Assembly: GCF_003574315.2 (NCBI RefSeq)
Contig: NZ_AP025739.1
Coordinates: 248,001-312,000 of the forward strand
Reading direction: 5' to 3'
Length of the DNA: 64,000 bases
Origin: Capsulimonas corticalis
Lineage (GTDB): Bacteria > Armatimonadota > Armatimonadia > Armatimonadales > Capsulimonadaceae
Numbering within the stretch: position 1 is the stretch's first letter; each line of letters opens with the position of its first letter. This document shows, in pieces, positions 19,206-45,664 of the stretch. The notes below the pieces were generated by a model. It saw nothing but the letters and a program-made list of their open reading frames with translations, searched no databases and had not been told where the DNA came from. A program made the position numbers and the translations under genes.

Positions 19206-22200
19206 ATGTCGTATTTGAGACCATCGCGGACGGCCGCGTTGATCGGAGCGATCGGCTTCTTGGGAGGCGCGGCCAGCCGGCCGGCGCTCGCTCAAATGCC
19301 TGGCAGCTACACCACATCCTGGCTCGGCGACACATTTGGGCAGGGTGGCTCCTCCACCGCGACCGGGCAATACTGGATGCAGGATTATATCGCGCAGATG
19401 ACCGTCCAATCTGACGGGACATGCTGGACATCCGGCCCCTGGGATGAAGGCGGGCGCACTAATGGCGAGTATAAAGACGGCCTTGTGGTCGGCAACCAGA
19501 ACAATAACATCAATAACCAGTCGGTCTCCGTCGGCGGGCATACCTGGACCATCAACGGCGCCAGCGTCACCAGCGACGACGGGCGCTCGCTGCCCAGTCC
19601 CGGCGCGCCGGGCGCGCTGGGAGTCGCCAGCAACGGCCAGCTTCTGGTGGCCGACAACGGCTCACGCTCGCAGGTCCTATTCTACAATGTCTCCGGAACT
19701 CCCAGTCTGGCCGGAACTTTCGGCGTGCAGGGTGGAATCAGCGCTTCCTATACGGCGACATATGACGTGCCGGCGGCCACCAACTCCCCCGACTACCCCA
19801 CCGGAACCTATGGCCCCGGCGTCTACCATCCGTTCAAACTCTGGAATATGACCGGGGTCGGCGAGGACAGCACGGGACGGCTCTTTGTCAGTCGCGAGGA
19901 CACGGGCGGCGGCAGCGCCATTCTGTGCTTCAAGCAAAACGGCAGCGGCAACTGGGTGCTGAACTGGCGGATCGAAGGCTATTGCTTTGTGGACAATGTG
20001 GATTTCGACGCCTCCACGGACGGCCAGGATGTCTACGGCGTCCAGGAGCATTACAAGATGGATTACACGCAGACCCTTCCGGGCGCCGAGTGGTCCATCT
20101 ACGGCTTTACGGCGGACAATCTGCATTACCTGAACGATCCGCGCAATGTCGACACCGTGCATGCAGGCCAGGAACATGGATTGACTTCCTGTTGGTATCG
20201 TAATGTCGGCGGTCACCGTCTGCTTTTCGTCGAGGGCATGACGACCCAGATGCTCAATATCTTCCGCTTCCAGAGTGGAAACGACGTCGCCGTTCCCACG
20301 GGCCTCGTCATGGAGACAAGCCATACCATCTATGGCGTATCCAACGGATTGTTCTGGCCGCCCAACCGGCCGGCGTCCGGCAGCGGCACGACGATCTGGA
20401 GCGACACCAACGACGACGGCAATTACCAGAGCGGCGAGTTCAGCGCGGCCTCCTATGGGTACACCTACGGCCAGTGGATCGACAGCGCCGGCAATATCTG
20501 GTGGGGAGGCAATCCTCTTGTCGAGAGCAAGCTCACCTCGTTCGACTCGGCCGGCAATCCGGTCTACGCCAGCTCCGGCGTGCAGAGCTTCAATATCAGC
20601 GGCATGCCCAGTGTCGGCAACATCCAATACGAAGAAGCGCAGGACCGCATGGTGCTGTGCGATAAGGCGGGAGAAGGTCTGACCGGGGGCAGCATCTATG
20701 TCATCAACGGATGGAGCACCGGCAACAGAACGGCGACAAAAGTGTTCACGATGACGAGCAATCAGCCGACGGGCTTCAGCGCGGCCGGCGACTATCTCTT
20801 TGAAGTCGGTTACGCCAGCCGAGGCAAGGTCTGGGTGCATAGCCTGGTGGACGGATCGCTGACCGGCACGATGGATGTTCCCTCGTCCCTGGGCGGCAAC
20901 GGCTACAGCGGCAACGTGGACATCGGCTACGGGATCCACGCCTTCAAGCGAGCCAATGGCGAGTACGAGGTCGCGGTCGAGGACGATTATATGGCGAAGG
21001 TCCTTCTGTATCGATGGAACCCCAATGGCGCCGTGGGCGGAGGCGGAACGCCGGAAGCGGCGTACCATGGACCGCACAATATTCCCGGCTCGATGGAGGC
21101 GGAGGATTACGACACCGGCGGGCAGGGCGTCGGCTACAACCAGACCAACGCCGGAGGACAGACAGGGTATCGAACGGACAACAACGGCGCCATCGAAGCG
21201 AACACCGCCGACAACAACGGCTACGATATCGGCTGGGCGGGATCCGGGCAGTGGGCGAAATATACCGTCGTCGTGGCCTCCGCCGGCGCTTACACGGTCA
21301 GCTTCCGCGTGGCGTCGCCCACCGGACAAACCGGCGCATTCCACCTTCAGGACGCCAACGGCAACAATCTGAGCGGCCCGATCAACGTTCCCAATACGGG
21401 CGCCTGGAACGCCTGGCAGAATGTGACGGCGACCGTGACGCTTCCGGCGGGATCCCAGATTCTGGAAATTGTCCAGGACAACTCCGGCTGGAATCTCGAC
21501 AGCATCAGCTTCGCCGCCAGCACCGGAACCGGAACGACGTCTTATGAGGCGGAAGCCACGGCCAATACGATCGGCAATGGCGCTTATGTCGACACCAACT
21601 CGGCGGCGTCCGGCGGACAGGTCGTCCGCTACATCGGCGGCTCCGCCGATGGATATGTGACGGTCAACAACGTGATGGAAAGCGCCGCCAGCACGCAGAC
21701 AATGACCGTTTACTACTACACCGGCGCGCGAAACTTCGCGGTCAGCGTCAACGGCGGCGCCGACCAGACGCTGACCTGCTCGAACGCCAACGGCGGCTCG
21801 GTCACGATGGCCGTGACGCTCAGCGCCGGCGCCAACACGATCAAATTCCACAACGCCGCAAGTTATGCGCCCGATCTGGACCGCATCACCGTCACCGGCG
21901 CCACGACGCCCTCCGCGCCTTCCGCTCCCACCGGCCTGACGGCGGCGGCGGGCAACGCCCAGGTCGCTCTCTCCTGGACCGCCGCTTCCGGGGCGACCAG
22001 CTACAGCATCTTCCGAGGTACAGCGTCCGGAGGAGAAAGCGCGACGGCCATCGTGACCGGCGTGACGGGAACGACCTATACCAACACGGGCCTGACCAAC
22101 GGAACGACCTACTATTACGAGGTCAAGGCCGTCAACAGCGCGGGAAGCAGCGGATACTCGAACGAGGCGTCCGCGAAGCCTGTCGCCCCCACGGCTCCGG

Positions 22201-22826
22201 CAGCCCCCACTGGCCTGGCGGCGACGGCGGGCAATGCCCAGGTCTCGCTGTCCTGGACGGCCTCCTCGGGAGCGACCAGCTACAGCATCTTCCGGGGAAC
22301 GACTTCGGGGGGTGAGAGCGCGACGGCGATTGCGACCGGCGTGACGGGGACAACCTACACCAACACAGGCCTGACCAACGGAACGACGTACTACTATGAG
22401 GTCAAGGCGGTCAACAGCGCCGGAAGCAGCGGCTACTCCAACGAAGACCTGGCCGAGCCGGGAACCTTGCCGGACCTGATCGTCACGGCCCTTACCTGGA
22501 CGCCGGCCGCGCCCGCCAGCGGATCGGCCGTCACCTTCACCACCACGGTTCGCAATATCGGCGCGGCCGCGACACCCTCCGGAACGGTGGTGGGCGTCGG
22601 CTACAGCGTCAGCGGCCTGGGAACGGTAACCTGGGAGGATCAAGACTCAACATCGCTGGCGGCGGGCGCTTCACGCGCCGAAACCGCCACCGGCGGCTCC
22701 TCCGGCAAGACCTGGACTGCGGCTTCCGGCTCCTATACGATCACGGCGTTCGTGGACGACGTGAACCGTATCTCGGAGCAAAACGAGAGCAACAACACGC
22801 TCGCGAAATCGCTGACCGTTCCATAA
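19206..22826 (+). CDS. Secreted multidomain protein: CBM6-like, FnIII x2, CARDB
   Basis: This is a 1206-aa exported protein. The ATG at 19206 follows AAAAGGAGAATCC. The signal peptide ends PALA-Q (about residue 30). Residues 31-610 are rich in Gly, Asn, Trp and Tyr with propeller-like repeats (VASNGQLLVADNG, VGEDSTGRLFVSREDTGGG), but show no catalytic motif I recognise. Then come a CBM6-like domain (about 618-771, SMEAEDYDTGGQG), a second related module (778-898), two near-identical fibronectin type III domains (about 903-993 and 996-1083) and a C-terminal CARDB domain (PDLIVTALTW to the end). It probably binds polysaccharide on or outside the cell. It stands alone with its own promoter and a terminator hairpin directly after it. 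Confidence 0.85.
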   Translation: MSYLRPSRTAALIGAIGFLGGAASRPALAQMPGSYTTSWLGDTFGQGGSSTATGQYWMQDYIAQMTVQSDGTCWTSGPWDEGGRTNGEYKDGLVVGNQNNNINNQSVSVGGHTWTINGASVTSDDGRSLPSPGAPGALGVASNGQLLVADNGSRSQVLFYNVSGTPSLAGTFGVQGGISASYTATYDVPAATNSPDYPTGTYGPGVYHPFKLWNMTGVGEDSTGRLFVSREDTGGGSAILCFKQNGSGNWVLNWRIEGYCFVDNVDFDASTDGQDVYGVQEHYKMDYTQTLPGAEWSIYGFTADNLHYLNDPRNVDTVHAGQEHGLTSCWYRNVGGHRLLFVEGMTTQMLNIFRFQSGNDVAVPTGLVMETSHTIYGVSNGLFWPPNRPASGSGTTIWSDTNDDGNYQSGEFSAASYGYTYGQWIDSAGNIWWGGNPLVESKLTSFDSAGNPVYASSGVQSFNISGMPSVGNIQYEEAQDRMVLCDKAGEGLTGGSIYVINGWSTGNRTATKVFTMTSNQPTGFSAAGDYLFEVGYASRGKVWVHSLVDGSLTGTMDVPSSLGGNGYSGNVDIGYGIHAFKRANGEYEVAVEDDYMAKVLLYRWNPNGAVGGGGTPEAAYHGPHNIPGSMEAEDYDTGGQGVGYNQTNAGGQTGYRTDNNGAIEANTADNNGYDIGWAGSGQWAKYTVVVASAGAYTVSFRVASPTGQTGAFHLQDANGNNLSGPINVPNTGAWNAWQNVTATVTLPAGSQILEIVQDNSGWNLDSISFAASTGTGTTSYEAEATANTIGNGAYVDTNSAASGGQVVRYIGGSADGYVTVNNVMESAASTQTMTVYYYTGARNFAVSVNGGADQTLTCSNANGGSVTMAVTLSAGANTIKFHNAASYAPDLDRITVTGATTPSAPSAPTGLTAAAGNAQVALSWTAASGATSYSIFRGTASGGESATAIVTGVTGTTYTNTGLTNGTTYYYEVKAVNSAGSSGYSNEASAKPVAPTAPAAPTGLAATAGNAQVSLSWTASSGATSYSIFRGTTSGGESATAIATGVTGTTYTNTGLTNGTTYYYEVKAVNSAGSSGYSNEDLAEPGTLPDLIVTALTWTPAAPASGSAVTFTTTVRNIGAAATPSGTVVGVGYSVSGLGTVTWEDQDSTSLAAGASRAETATGGSSGKTWTAASGSYTITAFVDDVNRISEQNESNNTLAKSLTVP

Positions 22827-23453: not shown

Positions 23454-24086
23454 ATGAGGAAATTATTGCACGTAGACTCCAGCCCGCGCGTGGAGCGATC
23501 GCATACTCGCCGGCTGAGCGCGGAGTTTGTCGAATCCTGGCGAGACTCACACCCCGAGACGAACATCGTCTACCGGGATATCGGGCGAAATCCGATTCCG
23601 CATGTCACCGAGGAATGGATAGGGGCCGCCTTCACTCCCACGAATCAGCGTACGAGCGCCCAGCTCGACACGCTTGCGCTAAGCGATCGGTTGGTGGACG
23701 AACTACTGGAGGCGGATGTCTATGTGATGGGCATTCCCATGTACAACTTCGGCGTGTCAAGCGGCTTCAAAGCCTACATCGATCAGATCGTCCGAATAGG
23801 CCGCACGTTTCTCTTCGAGCCGCAAGACCCAGGCGCAATCTACAAACCGCTTCTGACGGGGAAGACGCTATATGTGATTACCGCCAGCGGCGATTCCGGA
23901 TATGAACCAGGCGGCGTGAACGCCCGCATCAATCATCTGGCTCCATATCTTCACACCGTGTTCCAATTTATCGGAGTGACGGATATTTCGGTCATTAGCG
24001 TCGGCAGCGATGAGTTTGGAGGGGAGAGGCTTCAGGATTCGCTGGCGCGGGCGCGCAAGGCGATCGCCGAAATATCGGCGCGTTAG
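23454..24086 (+). CDS. azoR: FMN-dependent NADH:quinone/azo reductase
   Basis: This is a flavodoxin-fold reductase of 210 aa that reduces quinones and azo bonds by two electrons with NADH. The FMN-binding features are MRKLLHVDSSPR at the start, MGIPMYNFGVSSGFKAYIDQI (here GIPMYNFGVSSGFK) at about residue 95, and the ITASGDSGY loop near residue 140. GGGAGGAACAGT precedes the ATG. Expression is probably controlled by the divergent HxlR protein through the inverted repeat at 23368-23391, giving a quinone- or electrophile-stress response. Confidence 0.92.
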   Translation: MRKLLHVDSSPRVERSHTRRLSAEFVESWRDSHPETNIVYRDIGRNPIPHVTEEWIGAAFTPTNQRTSAQLDTLALSDRLVDELLEADVYVMGIPMYNFGVSSGFKAYIDQIVRIGRTFLFEPQDPGAIYKPLLTGKTLYVITASGDSGYEPGGVNARINHLAPYLHTVFQFIGVTDISVISVGSDEFGGERLQDSLARARKAIAEISAR

Positions 24087-24115
24087 CCGAGGGATCCGTC
24101 CGGCGAATCCCTCGG
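24087..24115 (+). terminator. Hairpin after azoR
   Basis: CCGAGGGAT (24087-24095) pairs with ATCCCTCGG (24107-24115) directly after the stop codon. There is no strong T-run. It also lies at the end of the convergent zinc-finger gene. Confidence 0.6.
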
Positions 24116-24128
24116 TGAGACAACCAGG

Positions 24129-24389
24129 TCAGACTTCGATCTCATCCACGTAGCACCAGCGCCAGTCTTCGCCGGGCTGGAACGATTGCATGATGGGGTG
24201 CTGGGTCGCATGGAAGTGCTTCGTCGCATGCTTGTTTTTGGACGAATCGCAGCAGCCGACGTGGCCGCACTCCAGGCAAAGTCTCAGGTGGACCCACGAA
24301 TCGCCGGACTCCAGGCACTCCTCGCAGCCCTGCGGCGTTTTAGGCTCTACGTCTTTGATCTGGTCCAGGTGTGTACATTTTTGCGGCAT
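24129..24389 (-). CDS. UBP-type zinc-finger protein, 86 aa
   Basis: This single-domain zf-UBP protein starts MPQKCTHLDQI. Cys5, His7, Cys22, Cys25, Cys38, Cys41, Cys46 and Cys47, with the His residues of HATKHFHATQHP (54-64), supply the three zinc sites of the fold. In eukaryotes the domain binds the free C-terminus of ubiquitin; bacterial stand-alone copies have no settled role. GGAG precedes the ATG. It is the last gene of the long minus-strand cluster, 47 nt after the DUF1573 gene. A copy encoding the identical 86 residues lies at 35614-35871, where it is fused to a LacI fragment. Confidence 0.9.
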   Translation of the reverse strand: MPQKCTHLDQIKDVEPKTPQGCEECLESGDSWVHLRLCLECGHVGCCDSSKNKHATKHFHATQHPIMQSFQPGEDWRWCYVDEIEV

Positions 24390-24432
24390 GAAGTTACTCC
24401 GGTTTTGAAGACTGAAGAAAGTATACCCAGAC
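24130..24432. repeat. 303-bp duplicated block, copy A
   Basis: This block covers the whole zinc-finger gene plus 43 bp upstream. It aligns without gaps to 35612-35914 with four mismatches, all silent or non-coding. Homology stops abruptly at CAGACTTC on one side and CCAGAC on the other. Confidence 0.95.
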
Positions 24433-24436
24433 CCGC

Positions 24437-24859
24437 CTACCTCACTTCTGCGCGAATGGCCCCTCGATCGATCTGACCGGTCAGCAGCAGCCACGTTTCC
24501 ACTCGCTGACCGCCGTGAGTGGTGGCGAAACATGCGCCGGCGGAAATATTGTTTGTGTCTTCGAGTTTGACACGCAAGGTCACATCGGCTTTGCCATGAG
24601 CGGGAATCACGGCGGCGGAAGCCTGTGCGGTGGTGCATTCACACCCGGTTGTCACGATCGAAAGGCCAACAGGAAAGGAGTGTGGATTGTTCAATCGATA
24701 AACATGCGTCAATGGGTGGCCGGCGGGCGTTCTCCCCGCATCGTACACCAATCCTCCCAGAACGCTAACATTCGGCGTTTCAGAGCCGCGCACTTTTGAG
24801 GCGACGCCCACGCCGACAAGCACGGAAACGGCGATAAGCGCAACAATCGAGATTCGCAT
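24437..24859 (-). CDS. DUF1573-like exported protein, 140 aa
   Basis: The N-terminal hydrophobic segment (MRISIVALIAVSVLVGVGVA) is a signal peptide or anchor. The remainder is a small immunoglobulin-like domain with NNPHSFPVGLSIVTTGCECTTA (key part TTGCECTTA) and IPAHGKADVTLRVKL. The Cys-x-Cys after a turn and the following Pro/Gly strand are characteristic of DUF1573. Start at 24859 is preferred because AGGGAG stands 5 nt before it. It lies 39 nt downstream of the transglycosylase fusion gene and 47 nt before the zinc-finger gene. The role of the family is unknown; a second copy is at 33532. Confidence 0.75.
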   Translation of the reverse strand: MRISIVALIAVSVLVGVGVASKVRGSETPNVSVLGGLVYDAGRTPAGHPLTHVYRLNNPHSFPVGLSIVTTGCECTTAQASAAVIPAHGKADVTLRVKLEDTNNISAGACFATTHGGQRVETWLLLTGQIDRGAIRAEVR

Positions 24860-24898
24860 AAGCACTCCCTGGCGATGAAAAGTTCCGAATCTGTGGAT

Positions 24899-26824
24899 TT
24901 AATCCCCCGTCGCCCTTGTCGTTCCAGGCGAGGCGTCGTCATATGGGCGAGGCGCGGTGGGACGCGGTCCTTTGACTTCAGTATGAAAGTGAGTCTGGTG
25001 GCGCTTTGGATCGTCGTTCCAATCGACGACGATGTCAAAGTGACGCCGGAGCATTGCTTCCAGCGGCGCAAGGCGCGCCATCACGCGCGGGTTGCCATGA
25101 TCCTTCACACTGACGCGGGAGCCGTCGGCAAATCGAAATCCGGAGATATCGATTGCCTGACCGAACGCATGCGCGGAAGTCGCCGTCGCCGATTGCCGCA
25201 TCGTTCGGTCGTTGTAGACGCCCAGATGGTCGATCCCCGTGACATGCAGGTTTTGTCGGGCATCCTCTAAAAATCCGGCCAGACGCTCCTTAAGACACAG
25301 CGCCGCCCGATCAATCGGCAAAGGCTGCTGGGGATCGGCGAATAAATAGAATTTCACCCCATGCCAGTCGTCCGGGATTTCATATGTCGCTCCCCGATCC
25401 CAGGCGTCTTTGTCAGGATAGAGCACTCGATCGAGCGGATCTCCGGCAGCGCGATCGACCTCTGCCTGGGAATATCGGTGAGGGAAGAAGTAACGCATAC
25501 GCCCCAACGCCGTCTGCCGGCCATCCAGTATCCGCTGCGAATCGACCTGCTGATGCATCGGATCCGGAACGATTCCGACAAGAATCGCGCTCTCCGTTAG
25601 CGTCAATTTGTCCGGCGTCTTGTGGAAATAATAACGCGCCGCCGCCGTCACGCCATGCTGCCCCATTCCATAATCGATCGTATTCAAATACAGCTCCAAG
25701 ATGCGCGGCTTCGGCAACATGCGCTCCAGCTCCCAGGCATACGCAGCCTCCTCGATCTTGCGCCACACAGTCCGATCGTTGCTGAGAAAGAGGTTCTTGG
25801 CAAGCTGCTGGGTAATCGTGCTGCCCCCTTCTTCGATCCGGCCATCGCGGAGGTCCATTCGCAGGGCGTGGTGCATCGCAGCCCAATCGAATCCATGGTG
25901 TTGGTAGAAGGCGTGATCCTCCATGGCGATCGTGGCGTCCTGCATGACAGGCGATATCGATGCAAGTGAACAAAATTCGCTTCGCCTTTCGGGAATCCCA
26001 GAGCCGCTGTAGTGAGCGACCGCGCCGTCCAATGGAATTTGAAGCACGAGAGCCACTGCGCAGACTGCGGCAGCGCCTCCCGCCCATAAGCGCACCGCCC
26101 ATGACCGGCGCCGTGCTTGCATGGGCGCCGAAGGCAATGCCAGACCAGGAAGATGCAAACCGCCGATCCATGCTGCTGTTAGCGCAAATATCCATGTTCC
26201 GATCACGGAGCTGCATGTCAAACAAGCATATCTCTCCCAAGGGTGCAGAAAGAGACAGCAGATCACGGCCAGAGCGATGATGCGAGAGACCATACGCAGC
26301 GGCTCTTGCGGGACCTCGGACGAGCGCAGCAACTTGACCGAGGCAATCAGGCTCATCCAGACACAGATGCCCGTAAGCGCCCCCAAAGCAAAGACAATTC
26401 CCCACCCTTGTTCCGCGACGAGCAAGGCGCCCCAAGGCTGCGCCGGCGAAGTGTCCGTTCCCAGTCCTTTTCCCAGCCATGCGTCTGCGGAGTTGCCCAG
26501 CGCGGGAAGAGGCGTCAACGCTCGAATGACCAGAATGCCGGAAAACAATGCGAGCAATGCGGCAATCACGGCCAACACGCGAGAACGCAGTGCGAACGAC
26601 GTTCTCGTCCCATCGGGAAAGATTCGAGCAAGCAAACGGAAAGCGCTGTTCCCAATTGTGGGGGTGCAGGAATAGACAACGAGCGATATCGCGACGCCGG
26701 CCGTGAGTCCCATGGCCGGGCAATAAGGAAACGGGGAGGCGCTTGACCAAAACCAGTCCTTCAGCGTCAATATCAGCCAGGACAGATAAGCGAGCTCAAA
26801 AAGCGCCGTCGGCGCTTGGCGCAT
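24899..26824 (-). CDS. Membrane protein with GT51 transglycosylase and extensin-C domains
   Basis: This 641-aa protein has three parts. Residues 1-265 carry about seven membrane helices. Residues 290-450 are a peptidoglycan glycosyltransferase family 51 domain: catalytic Glu in AMEDHAFYQHHGFDW, then EGGSTITQQLAKN, ELERMLPKPRILELYLN and LTESAILVGIVPDP. Residues 500-620 match an extensin-like C-terminal (M15-type peptidase) domain: HAFGQAIDISGFRFADG and HQTHFHTEV supply the His, Asp and His zinc ligands. It lacks the penicillin-binding transpeptidase domain normally joined to GT51. It may polymerise glycan and trim cross-links in one protein. It lies in the minus-strand surface cluster between a prepilin gene and a DUF1573 gene. 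Confidence 0.85.
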   Translation of the reverse strand: MRQAPTALFELAYLSWLILTLKDWFWSSASPFPYCPAMGLTAGVAISLVVYSCTPTIGNSAFRLLARIFPDGTRTSFALRSRVLAVIAALLALFSGILVIRALTPLPALGNSADAWLGKGLGTDTSPAQPWGALLVAEQGWGIVFALGALTGICVWMSLIASVKLLRSSEVPQEPLRMVSRIIALAVICCLFLHPWERYACLTCSSVIGTWIFALTAAWIGGLHLPGLALPSAPMQARRRSWAVRLWAGGAAAVCAVALVLQIPLDGAVAHYSGSGIPERRSEFCSLASISPVMQDATIAMEDHAFYQHHGFDWAAMHHALRMDLRDGRIEEGGSTITQQLAKNLFLSNDRTVWRKIEEAAYAWELERMLPKPRILELYLNTIDYGMGQHGVTAAARYYFHKTPDKLTLTESAILVGIVPDPMHQQVDSQRILDGRQTALGRMRYFFPHRYSQAEVDRAAGDPLDRVLYPDKDAWDRGATYEIPDDWHGVKFYLFADPQQPLPIDRAALCLKERLAGFLEDARQNLHVTGIDHLGVYNDRTMRQSATATSAHAFGQAIDISGFRFADGSRVSVKDHGNPRVMARLAPLEAMLRRHFDIVVDWNDDPKRHQTHFHTEVKGPRPTAPRPYDDASPGTTRATGD

Positions 26825-35267: not shown

Positions 35268-35289
35268 AAGCCGGGGAGTCTGTTCGGTT

Positions 35290-35871
35290 TTACTCGGAGC
35301 GCGGCGATGCGGTGCTGGCGCGGATGATGAGTTCGACGGGGAGCGTGACGCGGCATTCGGAGGCCGGCGCTCCTTCCAGAAGGCGGCTGACGAACTGCCC
35401 CGCCAGTTGTCCGACTTCCTCCGCCGGCTGACGTACGGTTGTCAGGCCCGGGAAATTTGCTGCGGCCGGACAGTCGTCGAACCCCACCACCGACATGTCT
35501 TCAGGAACGCGCTTTCCTAAGTTGCCCAGCCCTTCGATTGCCTGGAACGCCGAGGCGGCGTCGCCGGCGACAATCGCGGTCGGCGGCTCCGGCAGCGCGA
35601 TCAGCATACGGCAGACTTCGATCTCATCCACGTAGCACCAGCGCCAGTCTTCGCCGGGCTGGAACGATTGCATGATGGGATGCTGGGTCGCATGGAAATG
35701 CTTCGTCGCATGCTTGTTTTTGGACGAATCGCAGCAGCCGACGTGGCCGCACTCCAGGCAAAGTCTCAGGTGGACCCACGAATCGCCGGACTCCAGGCAC
35801 TCCTCGCAGCCCTGCGGCGTTTTAGGCTCTACGTCTTTGATCTGGTCCAGGTGTGTACATTTTTGCGGCAT
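35290..35871 (-). CDS. Chimeric ORF: zinc finger fused to LacI C-terminal fragment
   Basis: Residues 1-86 are identical to the UBP zinc-finger protein at 24129-24389. Its TGA stop is replaced here by TGC, and the frame continues for 107 residues of a LacI sugar-binding domain (CRMLIALPEPPTAIVAGD, MSVVGFDDCPAAANFPGLTT, LPVELIIRAS). That part aligns with the last third of the intact LacI at 44420-45478 but is a diverged paralogue, not an exact copy. The LacI DNA-binding half is missing. The zinc-finger ribosome site is retained, so a fusion protein could be made. Most likely a duplication landed in a LacI gene and left a pseudogene tail; a working fusion cannot be excluded. Confidence 0.85.
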   Translation of the reverse strand: MPQKCTHLDQIKDVEPKTPQGCEECLESGDSWVHLRLCLECGHVGCCDSSKNKHATKHFHATQHPIMQSFQPGEDWRWCYVDEIEVCRMLIALPEPPTAIVAGDAASAFQAIEGLGNLGKRVPEDMSVVGFDDCPAAANFPGLTTVRQPAEEVGQLAGQFVSRLLEGAPASECRVTLPVELIIRASTASPRSE

Positions 35872-35914
35872 GAAGTTACTCCGGTTTTGAAGACTGGAGA
35901 AAGTATATCCAGAC
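35612..35914. repeat. 303-bp duplicated block, copy B
   Basis: This block matches 24130-24432 with four mismatches and no gaps. The boundary toward LacI falls in CAGACTTC (35612-35619), an octamer present in both parent sequences (the zinc-finger gene end and the intact LacI near 44738). Confidence 0.95.
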
Positions 35915-35961
35915 TCAAACAGGCCGGCCCCCCTTTCCGCAATCCGTGGAAGCGGCGTTCG

Positions 35962-36738
35962 CTACTGGACGCGCTTGCCGTCCTTCAGAAACGGTTCGGC
36001 GATGTACAACGGCTTGCCGGCGGAATCGAGAAGCGGCGCCGAGGAGTATTGCGGCAGATAGATCCGGCGGCGGCGCGTCGTCGTGTTCGGTCCGCTGCGA
36101 TGGAGCACGTGGCTGCTGAACAGGGCGATGCTGCCGGCGGGCGCAATGACGGCGTCGCCGGGATCGTCGCCCCGATAACCGACCAGATCGAAGTCGTCCT
36201 CCAGCTTCGTATGCGGAACCAAGTCACGCGTTCCGGCGCGGTCATAGGGCAGCATATACACCGTGCCGTTTTCCTCCGTCACGTCGTCGAGCGTACACCA
36301 GCAGGTCAGATACGGATCGTGCGCAAAAGGGACATACGCCGAATCCTGGTGCCAGGCGAACGTACCGCCCTTTTCGGCGGCCTTGACGACGAACTGCTCG
36401 TAGGACAGATACACATCGTCGCCCAGCAGCGACTGGGTGATCCGCGCCATCAGATCGCTGAAGACGAACTCCTTGACCCGCGCGCGAGCGGCGTCCTTCA
36501 CGGGGTTGGCGCCCTGGGGCTCGTCCCACACCGAAAAGAAGTATTTGGTGGTGCGCGGCTTGCCCGCCTCGTCGGCCCGCTCGTCGATCTGATCGATCAG
36601 ATCGACGCAGGCGGTTCGCATCATCTCCAGATGCGCCTGGGGAATGACGCCCTCCAGCACGAAAAACCCCTTTTCCTCAAACTGACGCAGGTGCTCGGCG
36701 GTCACCAGCGGAGTCGGCGATTCACTCACGATAGGCAT
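35962..36738 (-). CDS. Phytanoyl-CoA dioxygenase family (PhyH) protein, 258 aa
   Basis: This is an Fe(II)/2-oxoglutarate-dependent oxygenase. The iron-binding His-x-Asp is in FAWHQDSAYVP, the distal His in SSHVLHRSGPN, and the following Thr/Arg-rich stretch ending RRRRIYLPQY supplies the 2-oxoglutarate Arg. The ATG at 36738 has AGAGGAGAAATT before it. Bacterial PhyH proteins hydroxylate diverse small molecules, so the substrate is open. It is divergent from an AraC regulator whose N-terminal cupin may sense the same compound. In related bacteria this pair is often found in sugar- or xenobiotic-use loci. Confidence 0.88.
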   Translation of the reverse strand: MPIVSESPTPLVTAEHLRQFEEKGFFVLEGVIPQAHLEMMRTACVDLIDQIDERADEAGKPRTTKYFFSVWDEPQGANPVKDAARARVKEFVFSDLMARITQSLLGDDVYLSYEQFVVKAAEKGGTFAWHQDSAYVPFAHDPYLTCWCTLDDVTEENGTVYMLPYDRAGTRDLVPHTKLEDDFDLVGYRGDDPGDAVIAPAGSIALFSSHVLHRSGPNTTTRRRRIYLPQYSSAPLLDSAGKPLYIAEPFLKDGKRVQ

Positions 36739-36901: not shown

Positions 36902-37756
36902 ATGCCCAAAGAAGATCTTCACCTGCCGGTCTCCTGGGACGGCAGTATCTTTTTCCATACGCCGGACGCCCCCGCATCCACCCCGCACCGGCACGAGGAG
37001 CTGGAGTTCAATCTCGTGACGGCGGGCCGCGCCGCCTATCTGCTGGGCGAGCGGCGCTATGAGCTGACGCGCAATTCGCTGGTCTGGCTGTTCCCAGAGC
37101 AGGACCACGTGCTGCTCGACCGGTCGCCGGACCACGCCATGTGGATCGGACTGTTCAAGCCCGATCTGCTGAGCCGCCTGGATGCCGGTTCGCGACTGGA
37201 TGCGGACAAGGCGGTCCTGCTCGAACCCGCTCCCGCCGGAAACTTCTGCCGCCGGATCTCCGAAGCCGACGGCGCTCGTCTCAGCGCGCTCCTTGACGAG
37301 CTTCAGGCCGTGCGCCAGGACACGCCCTGGTTCAACGCCGGTCTGGGATATTTGCTGTTCATGTCGTGGGGCGCGTATCTCGCCGCCGAGGAATCGGCGG
37401 CGGGGCCGGACGTTCACCCGGCGGTCGAGCAGACGGCGCGTCTGCTGCGCGACGATCCCGAACCGCTCACCGTCGATCAGCTCGCGGCCCGGGTCGGCCT
37501 GAGCGCCTCATATCTCGGCCGCCTGTTCCATCAGCAGACCGGGATCACGCTGGTGGAGTTTCGCAACCGGCAGCGCATGGACCGCTTTCTGCGACTCTAC
37601 GACGGCGAACAGAAAATCTCCGCGCTGGAGGCGGCGCTGGAGACGGGATTCGGCAGCTACCCACAGTTCCACCGGGTCTTTACGGAGCAGATGGGGTGCA
37701 GCCCCGCCGAGTACAAAAGAAAGCGCCAGCAGGGAAGACGCCCGCAGGACGAATAA
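36902..37756 (+). CDS. AraC-family transcriptional regulator, 284 aa
   Basis: An N-terminal cupin-like sensor (HRHEELEFNLVTAGRAAYLLGERRYEL, with the key His-x-His-x3-Glu in TPHRHEELEF) is followed at residues 178-275 by the double helix-turn-helix domain (LTVDQLAARVGLSASYLGRLFHQQTGITL; second helix GFGSYPQFHRVFTEQMGCSPAEYK). Length and order are standard. It is divergent from the PhyH gene, so it may activate that gene, and lies 205 nt upstream of the RND efflux operon in the same direction. Which of the two it controls is not decided by sequence. Confidence 0.9.
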   Translation: MPKEDLHLPVSWDGSIFFHTPDAPASTPHRHEELEFNLVTAGRAAYLLGERRYELTRNSLVWLFPEQDHVLLDRSPDHAMWIGLFKPDLLSRLDAGSRLDADKAVLLEPAPAGNFCRRISEADGARLSALLDELQAVRQDTPWFNAGLGYLLFMSWGAYLAAEESAAGPDVHPAVEQTARLLRDDPEPLTVDQLAARVGLSASYLGRLFHQQTGITLVEFRNRQRMDRFLRLYDGEQKISALEAALETGFGSYPQFHRVFTEQMGCSPAEYKRKRQQGRRPQDE

Positions 37757-44384: not shown

Positions 44385-44419
44385 GAAAGCAGATAAAACT
44401 CCATCGCCGCCGATGATGT

Positions 44420-45478
44420 TTAACCTGCCGGGGGAGGCGCGGTGCTGGCGCGGATGATCAGTTCGACGGGGAGGGTGACGCGGCATTCGGAGGCCGGGGC
44501 GCCTTCGAGGAGGCGGCTGATCAATTGGCCGGCGAGCTGTCCGACCTCCTGGGCCGGCTGGCGCACTGTGGTGAGGCCCGGAGAGTTGGCGGCGGCGGGG
44601 CAGTCGTCGAAACCCACGACGGAGATGTCTTCCGGCACGCTCTTGCCGCACAGCTTGAGCGCTTCGATCAATGGGAAGGCCGAGGCGTCGTCGCCAGCGA
44701 TAATCGCCGTCGGCGGCTTCGGCAGCGCGATCAGCATACGGCAGACTTCCTCGAAGTCCGAGATCCAGTCGTCCGGGATCACGCTCAAGGCTGAGTCGTA
44801 GGGGAGACCATGCCGCTCCAGGCTGCTCACATAGGAGGCGTAACGCTCGGCGGCGTCGGGGGTCATCATGGCGCCGCAGAAGACGATCCGGCGATGTCCC
44901 AACTCCACCAGATGGTCCACGGCGGCGGCGACGCCGGCGGCGTTGTCGATCGTGACGGAGCCGGTTGAGTCGGGAACGTCGCCATTGTAGAGCACGACCA
45001 GCGGCAGGCCTGCGTTGGCGAGCATGGCGACGGCTTCGGGCTTGACGGTTGTCGGCCCGAGGATCAATCCGTCAACACGGCCATCGAGAAATGTCGCCGG
45101 GGTTAACGCCGGAAACTGGTTCGGCTTATCGGAATAAAGCAGCAGATCCCGGCCGCTGCCCGCCACGCCGTCGGCCACTCCCTTGAGCAAAGGCAGCGTG
45201 ATATCGTTGACGGCGCCGATCTGCACCGGCCACGCGAAGACGCCAATGGTATGGGTCTGCCCCCGCTGCAAAGAACAGATGAGCGCGTTCGGCGTAAAAT
45301 TCAGTTCTTCGGCCGCCTGAAGCACGCGCTGGCGCGTGCCGGCTTTGAGCTGGCCCTTGTTGTTCATCGCCTTGGAGGCGGTTCCCACGGAAACGCCCGC
45401 GCGCGCGGCGACGTCCCGGATTGTTGTGAGTGCTCTAGCTATGGCCTGCGCCCTCCACGAAAAACATTGTTTTCTCAT
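44420..45478 (-). CDS. LacI-family transcriptional regulator, 352 aa
   Basis: The DNA-binding domain is TTIRDVAARAGVSVGTASKAMNNKGQLKAGTRQRVLQ (core IRDVAARAGVSVGTASKAMN, about residues 18-40), unusually placed 17 residues into the reading frame. It is followed by the hinge and a sugar-binding domain with the signatures GHRRIVFCGAMM, AIIAGDDASAF and ISVVGFDDCPAA. The ATG at 45478 overlaps a 13-bp palindrome, so translation may start further in, but no ATG or GTG is available before the helix-turn-helix. The last third has a diverged relative in the chimeric ORF at 35290. It is divergent from a second LacI gene at 45735. Target genes are unknown. Confidence 0.9.
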   Translation of the reverse strand: MRKQCFSWRAQAIARALTTIRDVAARAGVSVGTASKAMNNKGQLKAGTRQRVLQAAEELNFTPNALICSLQRGQTHTIGVFAWPVQIGAVNDITLPLLKGVADGVAGSGRDLLLYSDKPNQFPALTPATFLDGRVDGLILGPTTVKPEAVAMLANAGLPLVVLYNGDVPDSTGSVTIDNAAGVAAAVDHLVELGHRRIVFCGAMMTPDAAERYASYVSSLERHGLPYDSALSVIPDDWISDFEEVCRMLIALPKPPTAIIAGDDASAFPLIEALKLCGKSVPEDISVVGFDDCPAAANSPGLTTVRQPAQEVGQLAGQLISRLLEGAPASECRVTLPVELIIRASTAPPPAG

Positions 45479-45562
45479 TCTATGCCATAAACGGCGCCAC
45501 TGTCAAGTAATTCGACGATACCATCGCATTTCTTCAATAAACCGGTTACATAACCGGTAATT
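45461..45562. promoter_or_regulatory. Operator-like palindromes at the LacI gene start
   Basis: AAAACA-T-TGTTTT (45461-45473) covers the start region of the minus-strand LacI gene. At 45539-45561 two ACCGGT-centred words, AAACCGGTTA and TAACCGGTAA, occur in tandem about 11 bp apart. Central CG palindromes are usual for LacI-family operators. Confidence 0.6.
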
Positions 45563-45664
45563 CATCGACTGATTTGTCCTGCGACGGTCCAAATGGCGGA
45601 TAAACGCTTCGGTCTTGTTGTACCAAAACTTAACCATCCGTTCGGAGTTTCAGGGAATGATCGA

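Follow-up and report, generated by a model that had tools for sequence, protein, structure and literature searches.

Bacteria are known both for illegitimate recombination that depends on short homologies and for deletions that arise, independently of RecA, between short direct repeats, the classic examples being the deletions of the E. coli lacI gene. In short-patch double illegitimate recombination, or template switching, a genomic patch replaces resident DNA and microhomology is found at both edges; the patches reported so far are mostly well under 303 bp. Gene fusions, for their part, are mostly observed long after their origin, when their joints have been eroded. Microhomology borders of 9 bp have also been used on purpose (PMC11111574).

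The locus described here lies in a window of 64,000 nucleotides (the whole stretch of DNA analysed, C1:248001-312000 of the one-contig, 7,645,051-bp genome of Capsulimonas corticalis) and contains an open reading frame whose first 86 residues constitute an intact small bacterial zf-UBP protein (PF02148), whereas its last 107 residues derive from a LacI/GalR regulator. As in short-homology recombination and deletion, the joins fall at 5-9 nt of common sequence and no mobile element is involved, but in this case a distant 303-bp patch replaces the resident sequence and yields an in-frame fusion of two genes. The likeness to short-patch double illegitimate recombination consists in the replacement of resident DNA by a genomic patch with apparent microhomology at both edges, the difference being that what moved in this case was an entire gene, ribosome-binding site included. 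Furthermore, unlike the zf-UBP homologues examined, which are stand-alone, the fusion bears a LacI tail and, unlike the LacI/GalR regulators, it has no helix-turn-helix (HTH), no N-subdomain, only half of the C-subdomain and no invariant Asp. The mechanism is of a known kind and is ordinary for bacteria. The features on which the argument relies are the following.

24129-24389, minus strand: stand-alone zf-UBP gene, the ancestral form (86 aa and TGA; Pfam PF02148)
24130-24432, minus strand: donor copy of the 303-nt block (zf-UBP gene and 5' leader, with CAGAC at start and end)
35290-35871, minus strand: fusion ORF of 193 aa (zf-UBP and the C-terminal 107 residues of a LacI-family protein)
35293-35619, minus strand: tail of LacI origin; its homologous part in the intact paralogue is residues ~244-350
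35612-35914, minus strand: recipient copy of the 303-nt block, with 4 mismatches relative to the donor
35612-35619, minus strand: left junction, CAGACTTC (coding strand GAAGTCTG), common to donor, chimera and intact LacI
35910-35914, minus strand: right edge of the block, CAGAC followed by unrelated sequence (from the mismatch list and motif positions)
35962-36738, minus strand: PhyH-family dioxygenase gene (Pfam PF05721), directly upstream of the fusion
44420-45478, minus strand: intact LacI-family paralogue of 352 aa, the reference for the lost N-terminal part
44742-44749, minus strand: octamer CAGACTTC in the intact LacI gene, containing the only CAGAC in 44400-45620

The first-pass annotation had reported that the 303-nt block at 24130-24432 is present again at 35612-35914 with four mismatches and an unaltered protein, and both a self-repeat comparison and the list of mismatches bear this out exactly, the two copies being 98.7% identical (1.3% divergence). 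Two of the mismatches (24198 and 24216, in donor coordinates) are synonymous CAC/CAT differences in zf-UBP codons 58 and 64, while the other two (24415 and 24426) fall in the 5' leader of the gene. The content of the block is the zf-UBP coding sequence minus the final base of its stop codon, together with 43 nt of leader carrying a GGAG ribosome-binding site. The zf-UBP profile (PF02148) scores 49.7 bits on the fusion and 52.7 bits on the donor, the Pfam cut-off being 22.7, and a search of the genome yielded these two near-identical zf-UBP copies only.

At its left edge the block ends at CAGACTTC, as had been claimed from the sequence; the octamer occupies the corresponding position of the LacI gene and the identity between chimera and paralogue stops precisely there (35619 and 44749, respectively). 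The octamer of the ancestral LacI gene is read from this paralogue, which is 82% identical; when it stands in for the recipient and all alignments are enumerated, a random donor/LacI junction would display a microhomology of at least 8 nt with P ~3.5e-4. A new observation is that the 303-nt block both starts and finishes in CAGAC. This pentamer occurs at 24130 and 24428 only in the 1.2 kb around the donor (23700-24900), at 35612 and 35910 only in the 0.7 kb around the fusion (35280-36000) and only at 44742, i.e., at the junction, in the 1.2 kb around the intact LacI gene (44400-45620). A random 303-bp block would have equal terminal pentamers with P ~1.3e-3, but the symmetry was spotted after the fact, so that the probabilities attached to it are descriptive. 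The presence of CAGAC at both ends favors microhomology at both edges; for the right-hand edge we infer it, on the assumption of a CAGAC upstream of LacI in the recipient before the event.

Across the left junction the zf-UBP stop TGA becomes TGC in the second copy and the LacI frame then runs for 107 residues, in agreement with the initial reading. Pfam recognizes in the fusion ORF the zf-UBP domain (E 4e-13) and the C-terminal part of Peripla_BP_3 (E 9e-23), the latter effector domain being incomplete in that only profile positions 67-167 of 167 are represented; no HTH match was found by Pfam in the fusion. The first ~242 codons of LacI and its promoter are missing at this locus and, with the lobe boundaries that we assume, the tail is presumably devoid of the N-subdomain and of half of the C-subdomain. 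In addition, residue 105 of the fusion is Ala, whereas Asp is found in 19 of 19 homologues and in the intact paralogue; this Asp belongs to the conserved (N/D)D-x-x-A motif of LacI/GalR regulators and occupies what we take to be an effector-pocket position of LacI. Because HTH, N-subdomain and half of the C-subdomain are absent, the fusion cannot act as a LacI regulator. A structure model, for which LacI homologues were present in the alignment, gives high pLDDT at residues 81-190 and low confidence, without alignment depth, for the zinc finger. The model says that the LacI half keeps the local fold pattern, which does not imply that it would be stable alone, and this half may be a folded remnant. 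As the start signals of the zf-UBP gene are kept, the fusion is probably translated, if transcribed.

In the intact LacI paralogue, located 9 kb from the fusion in the same window, the alignment with solved LacI/CcpA chains starts at residue 18-19 and takes in the HTH, and the 3' part of the gene is 82% identical in DNA to the tail of the fusion, without gaps. The comparison of the two yields a dN/dS of 0.14, and the amino-acid changes (3 derived in the chimera, 4 derived in the paralogue and 9 unpolarised) reveal no excess on the side of the tail. The low dN/dS and the absence of surplus amino-acid changes indicate that the tail belonged to a normal working gene until recently. With the paralogue as query, a DNA search of the genome returned no second copy of the missing N-terminal part of LacI, and a 69%-complete draft genome of the same genus yielded no close intact counterpart, the best match being 39%. 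A long match from the same genus turned out to be an ordinary LacI gene cut by a contig end.

The direction of copying, from the zf-UBP gene to the LacI locus, is supported by the homologues. Those found in Acidobacteriota, Chloroflexota, Cyanobacteriota and other groups are stand-alone, the stop falls at position 86-89 in most of 88 homologues and 60 relatives revealed no zf-UBP/LacI fusion. The donor form is thus the gene at 24 kb. When the four mismatches were examined against the 88 homologues, CAC and CAT proved equally common, and the direction is not readable from the mismatches themselves. Two candidates for longer matches to the fusion were both stand-alone zf-UBP genes. Elsewhere in the genome (C1:7294269-7294520) there is a third, diverged zf-UBP gene with 44-46% protein identity, and a LacI-family homologue lies ~0.4 kb downstream of it on the same strand.

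Beyond the right-hand CAGAC, unrelated sequence leads to the end of the PhyH gene at 35962. A PhyH paralogue at C1:6984-7760 encodes a 91% identical protein but has different flanks, its similarity being confined to the gene; the right junction could not be read from that locus, which has no adjacent LacI gene and where similarity stops with PhyH. The PhyH gene forms a divergent pair with an AraC gene (36902-37756 with 35962-36738) that recurs in at least five relatives. In the five relatives having this pair no LacI gene directly follows PhyH, so that the ancestral order was not recovered.

As to how the fusion arose, the loss of the whole upstream part of LacI argues for a replacement and not for an insertion. 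The first-pass annotation, which had described a zinc finger duplicated into a LacI gene, was therefore right as to duplication and fusion, whereas the first ~242 codons of LacI have been replaced. Likewise, its proposal of recombination through microhomology is upheld as far as the chimera, the direction and the junction are concerned, the CAGAC at the second edge having escaped it. The account that we consider probable is a one-event replacement, in which a zf-UBP patch with microhomology at both edges supplanted the first ~242 codons of LacI, leaving a young duplicate with a decaying tail. In one event of illegitimate recombination or template switching, the zf-UBP gene would have been copied ~11-11.5 kb along the chromosome. 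At CAGACTTC the growing or invading strand would have passed from the LacI locus to the identical octamer that overlaps the stop codon of zf-UBP; it would then have copied the gene as far as the CAGAC of the 5' leader and, through another CAGAC(T) situated upstream of LacI, returned to the recipient. The promoter-proximal part of LacI would in this way be swapped for the leader, ribosome-binding site and start codon of zf-UBP. The same event could also be pictured as a donor strand that anneals at each of two microhomologies, and its product would be an intact zf-UBP domain with a C-terminal remnant of LacI unable to bind DNA. A single event with two template switches is the most economical account.

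Its main rival is a two-step history, which matches the evidence almost as well and yet seems to us doubtful: the zf-UBP gene would have been copied between PhyH and an intact LacI gene, and a later RecA-independent deletion between the 8-nt CAGACTTC repeats would have removed the zf-UBP stop codon and the N-terminal part of LacI. That zf-UBP, LacI and PhyH share one strand suits this history, and a classic short-repeat deletion would account for both the octamer and the loss of ~242 LacI codons; on the other hand, two rare events are required and the CAGAC at the other end of the block is left without a reason. The fact that CAGAC flanks the block in donor and recipient might also suggest a circle, excised between the two donor copies of the pentamer and integrated at a CAGAC of a LacI gene that had been truncated before, and the right flank CAGACTCA is consistent with a pre-insertion CAGACT. 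This scheme is very improbable, as it demands a prior truncation of LacI exactly at the same motif and there are neither inverted ends nor a fold at the edges; since the donor zf-UBP gene is still present, the source of the circle would have to be a sister copy. That the junction is an artefact of assembly or library is hardly credible: the genome is a single contig, assemblers make no joins on 8 nt, other genes are found on both flanks of the fusion, and the differences between the two copies at four sites mean that the second did not arise by collapse or misplacement of the first.

Mobile elements and DNA secondary structure were considered as well. Transposition by an IS or a MITE was rejected, there being no inverted repeats in the region and no further copies in the genome. 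Fork stalling at a hairpin was likewise rejected, since neither the LacI junction nor the other edges fold better as DNA than shuffled sequences do (z 0.2-1.4). In a survey of duplicates (at least 97% identity and at least 100 bp) covering a sample of 2.4 Mb, i.e., 31% of the genome, the zf-UBP block was the only dispersed single-gene duplicate of its kind, the others being IS-like pairs, a 60-bp tandem array, neighbouring tandem paralogues and ~100-bp repeats. A general duplication mechanism operating in this genome was dismissed, as no second dispersed single-gene duplicate appeared in the 2.4 Mb, and the lack of any comparable case in this sample indicates that the event is rare in this organism.

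The genome has repeats of other kinds as well. Dispersed palindromic repeats of ~150 bp, with ends GCAAACCCACCC...GGTGGGTTTGC and MITE- or REP-like in appearance, are found in several copies (C1:765510, 785427, 3633624, 5081581 and others), and a 60-bp unit forms a near-perfect tandem array at C1:2349668-2350396. Within the window, a 257-nt repeat occurs twice in tandem at 21909-22444, with 84% identity between the units, in a gene for a large secreted protein (fibronectin-type by eye), and DUF1559 prepilin-like genes are recognized by Pfam.

Is the fusion then a new protein? Such a protein, kept by selection, would be compatible with any of the mechanisms discussed, and some properties of the locus speak in its favor, namely an open frame of 193 codons with its own ribosome-binding site, an unchanged zf-UBP protein sequence and a confidently modelled LacI half. 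The open frame, however, is uninformative, because a divergence of only 1.3% is too recent, the LacI half lacks the HTH, the N-subdomain, half of the C-subdomain and the invariant Asp, and the changes in the tail are neither enriched nor depleted; we consider a selected function very improbable. With an intact zf-UBP half and a fragmentary LacI half deprived of its invariant Asp, the sober reading is that of a duplicated gene to which a pseudogene tail is attached and, judging from the sequence, the fusion is most likely a recent duplicate of the zf-UBP gene of this sort. The earlier alternative of "gene birth or decay" is thereby narrowed: birth is not borne out by an intact zf-UBP duplicate attached to a non-autonomous LacI fragment, and decay is favored.

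Little new biology would come from the fusion unless it is expressed and kept. It would be a surprise if this lineage had, in one microhomology-driven step, copied an entire small gene together with its ribosome-binding site into another gene and maintained the expressed zf-UBP/LacI fusion by selection. Nevertheless, with parents at most 21 kb apart, copies that are 98.7% identical and edges that are exact to the base, the locus represents a clean natural case of a fused gene made by microhomology.
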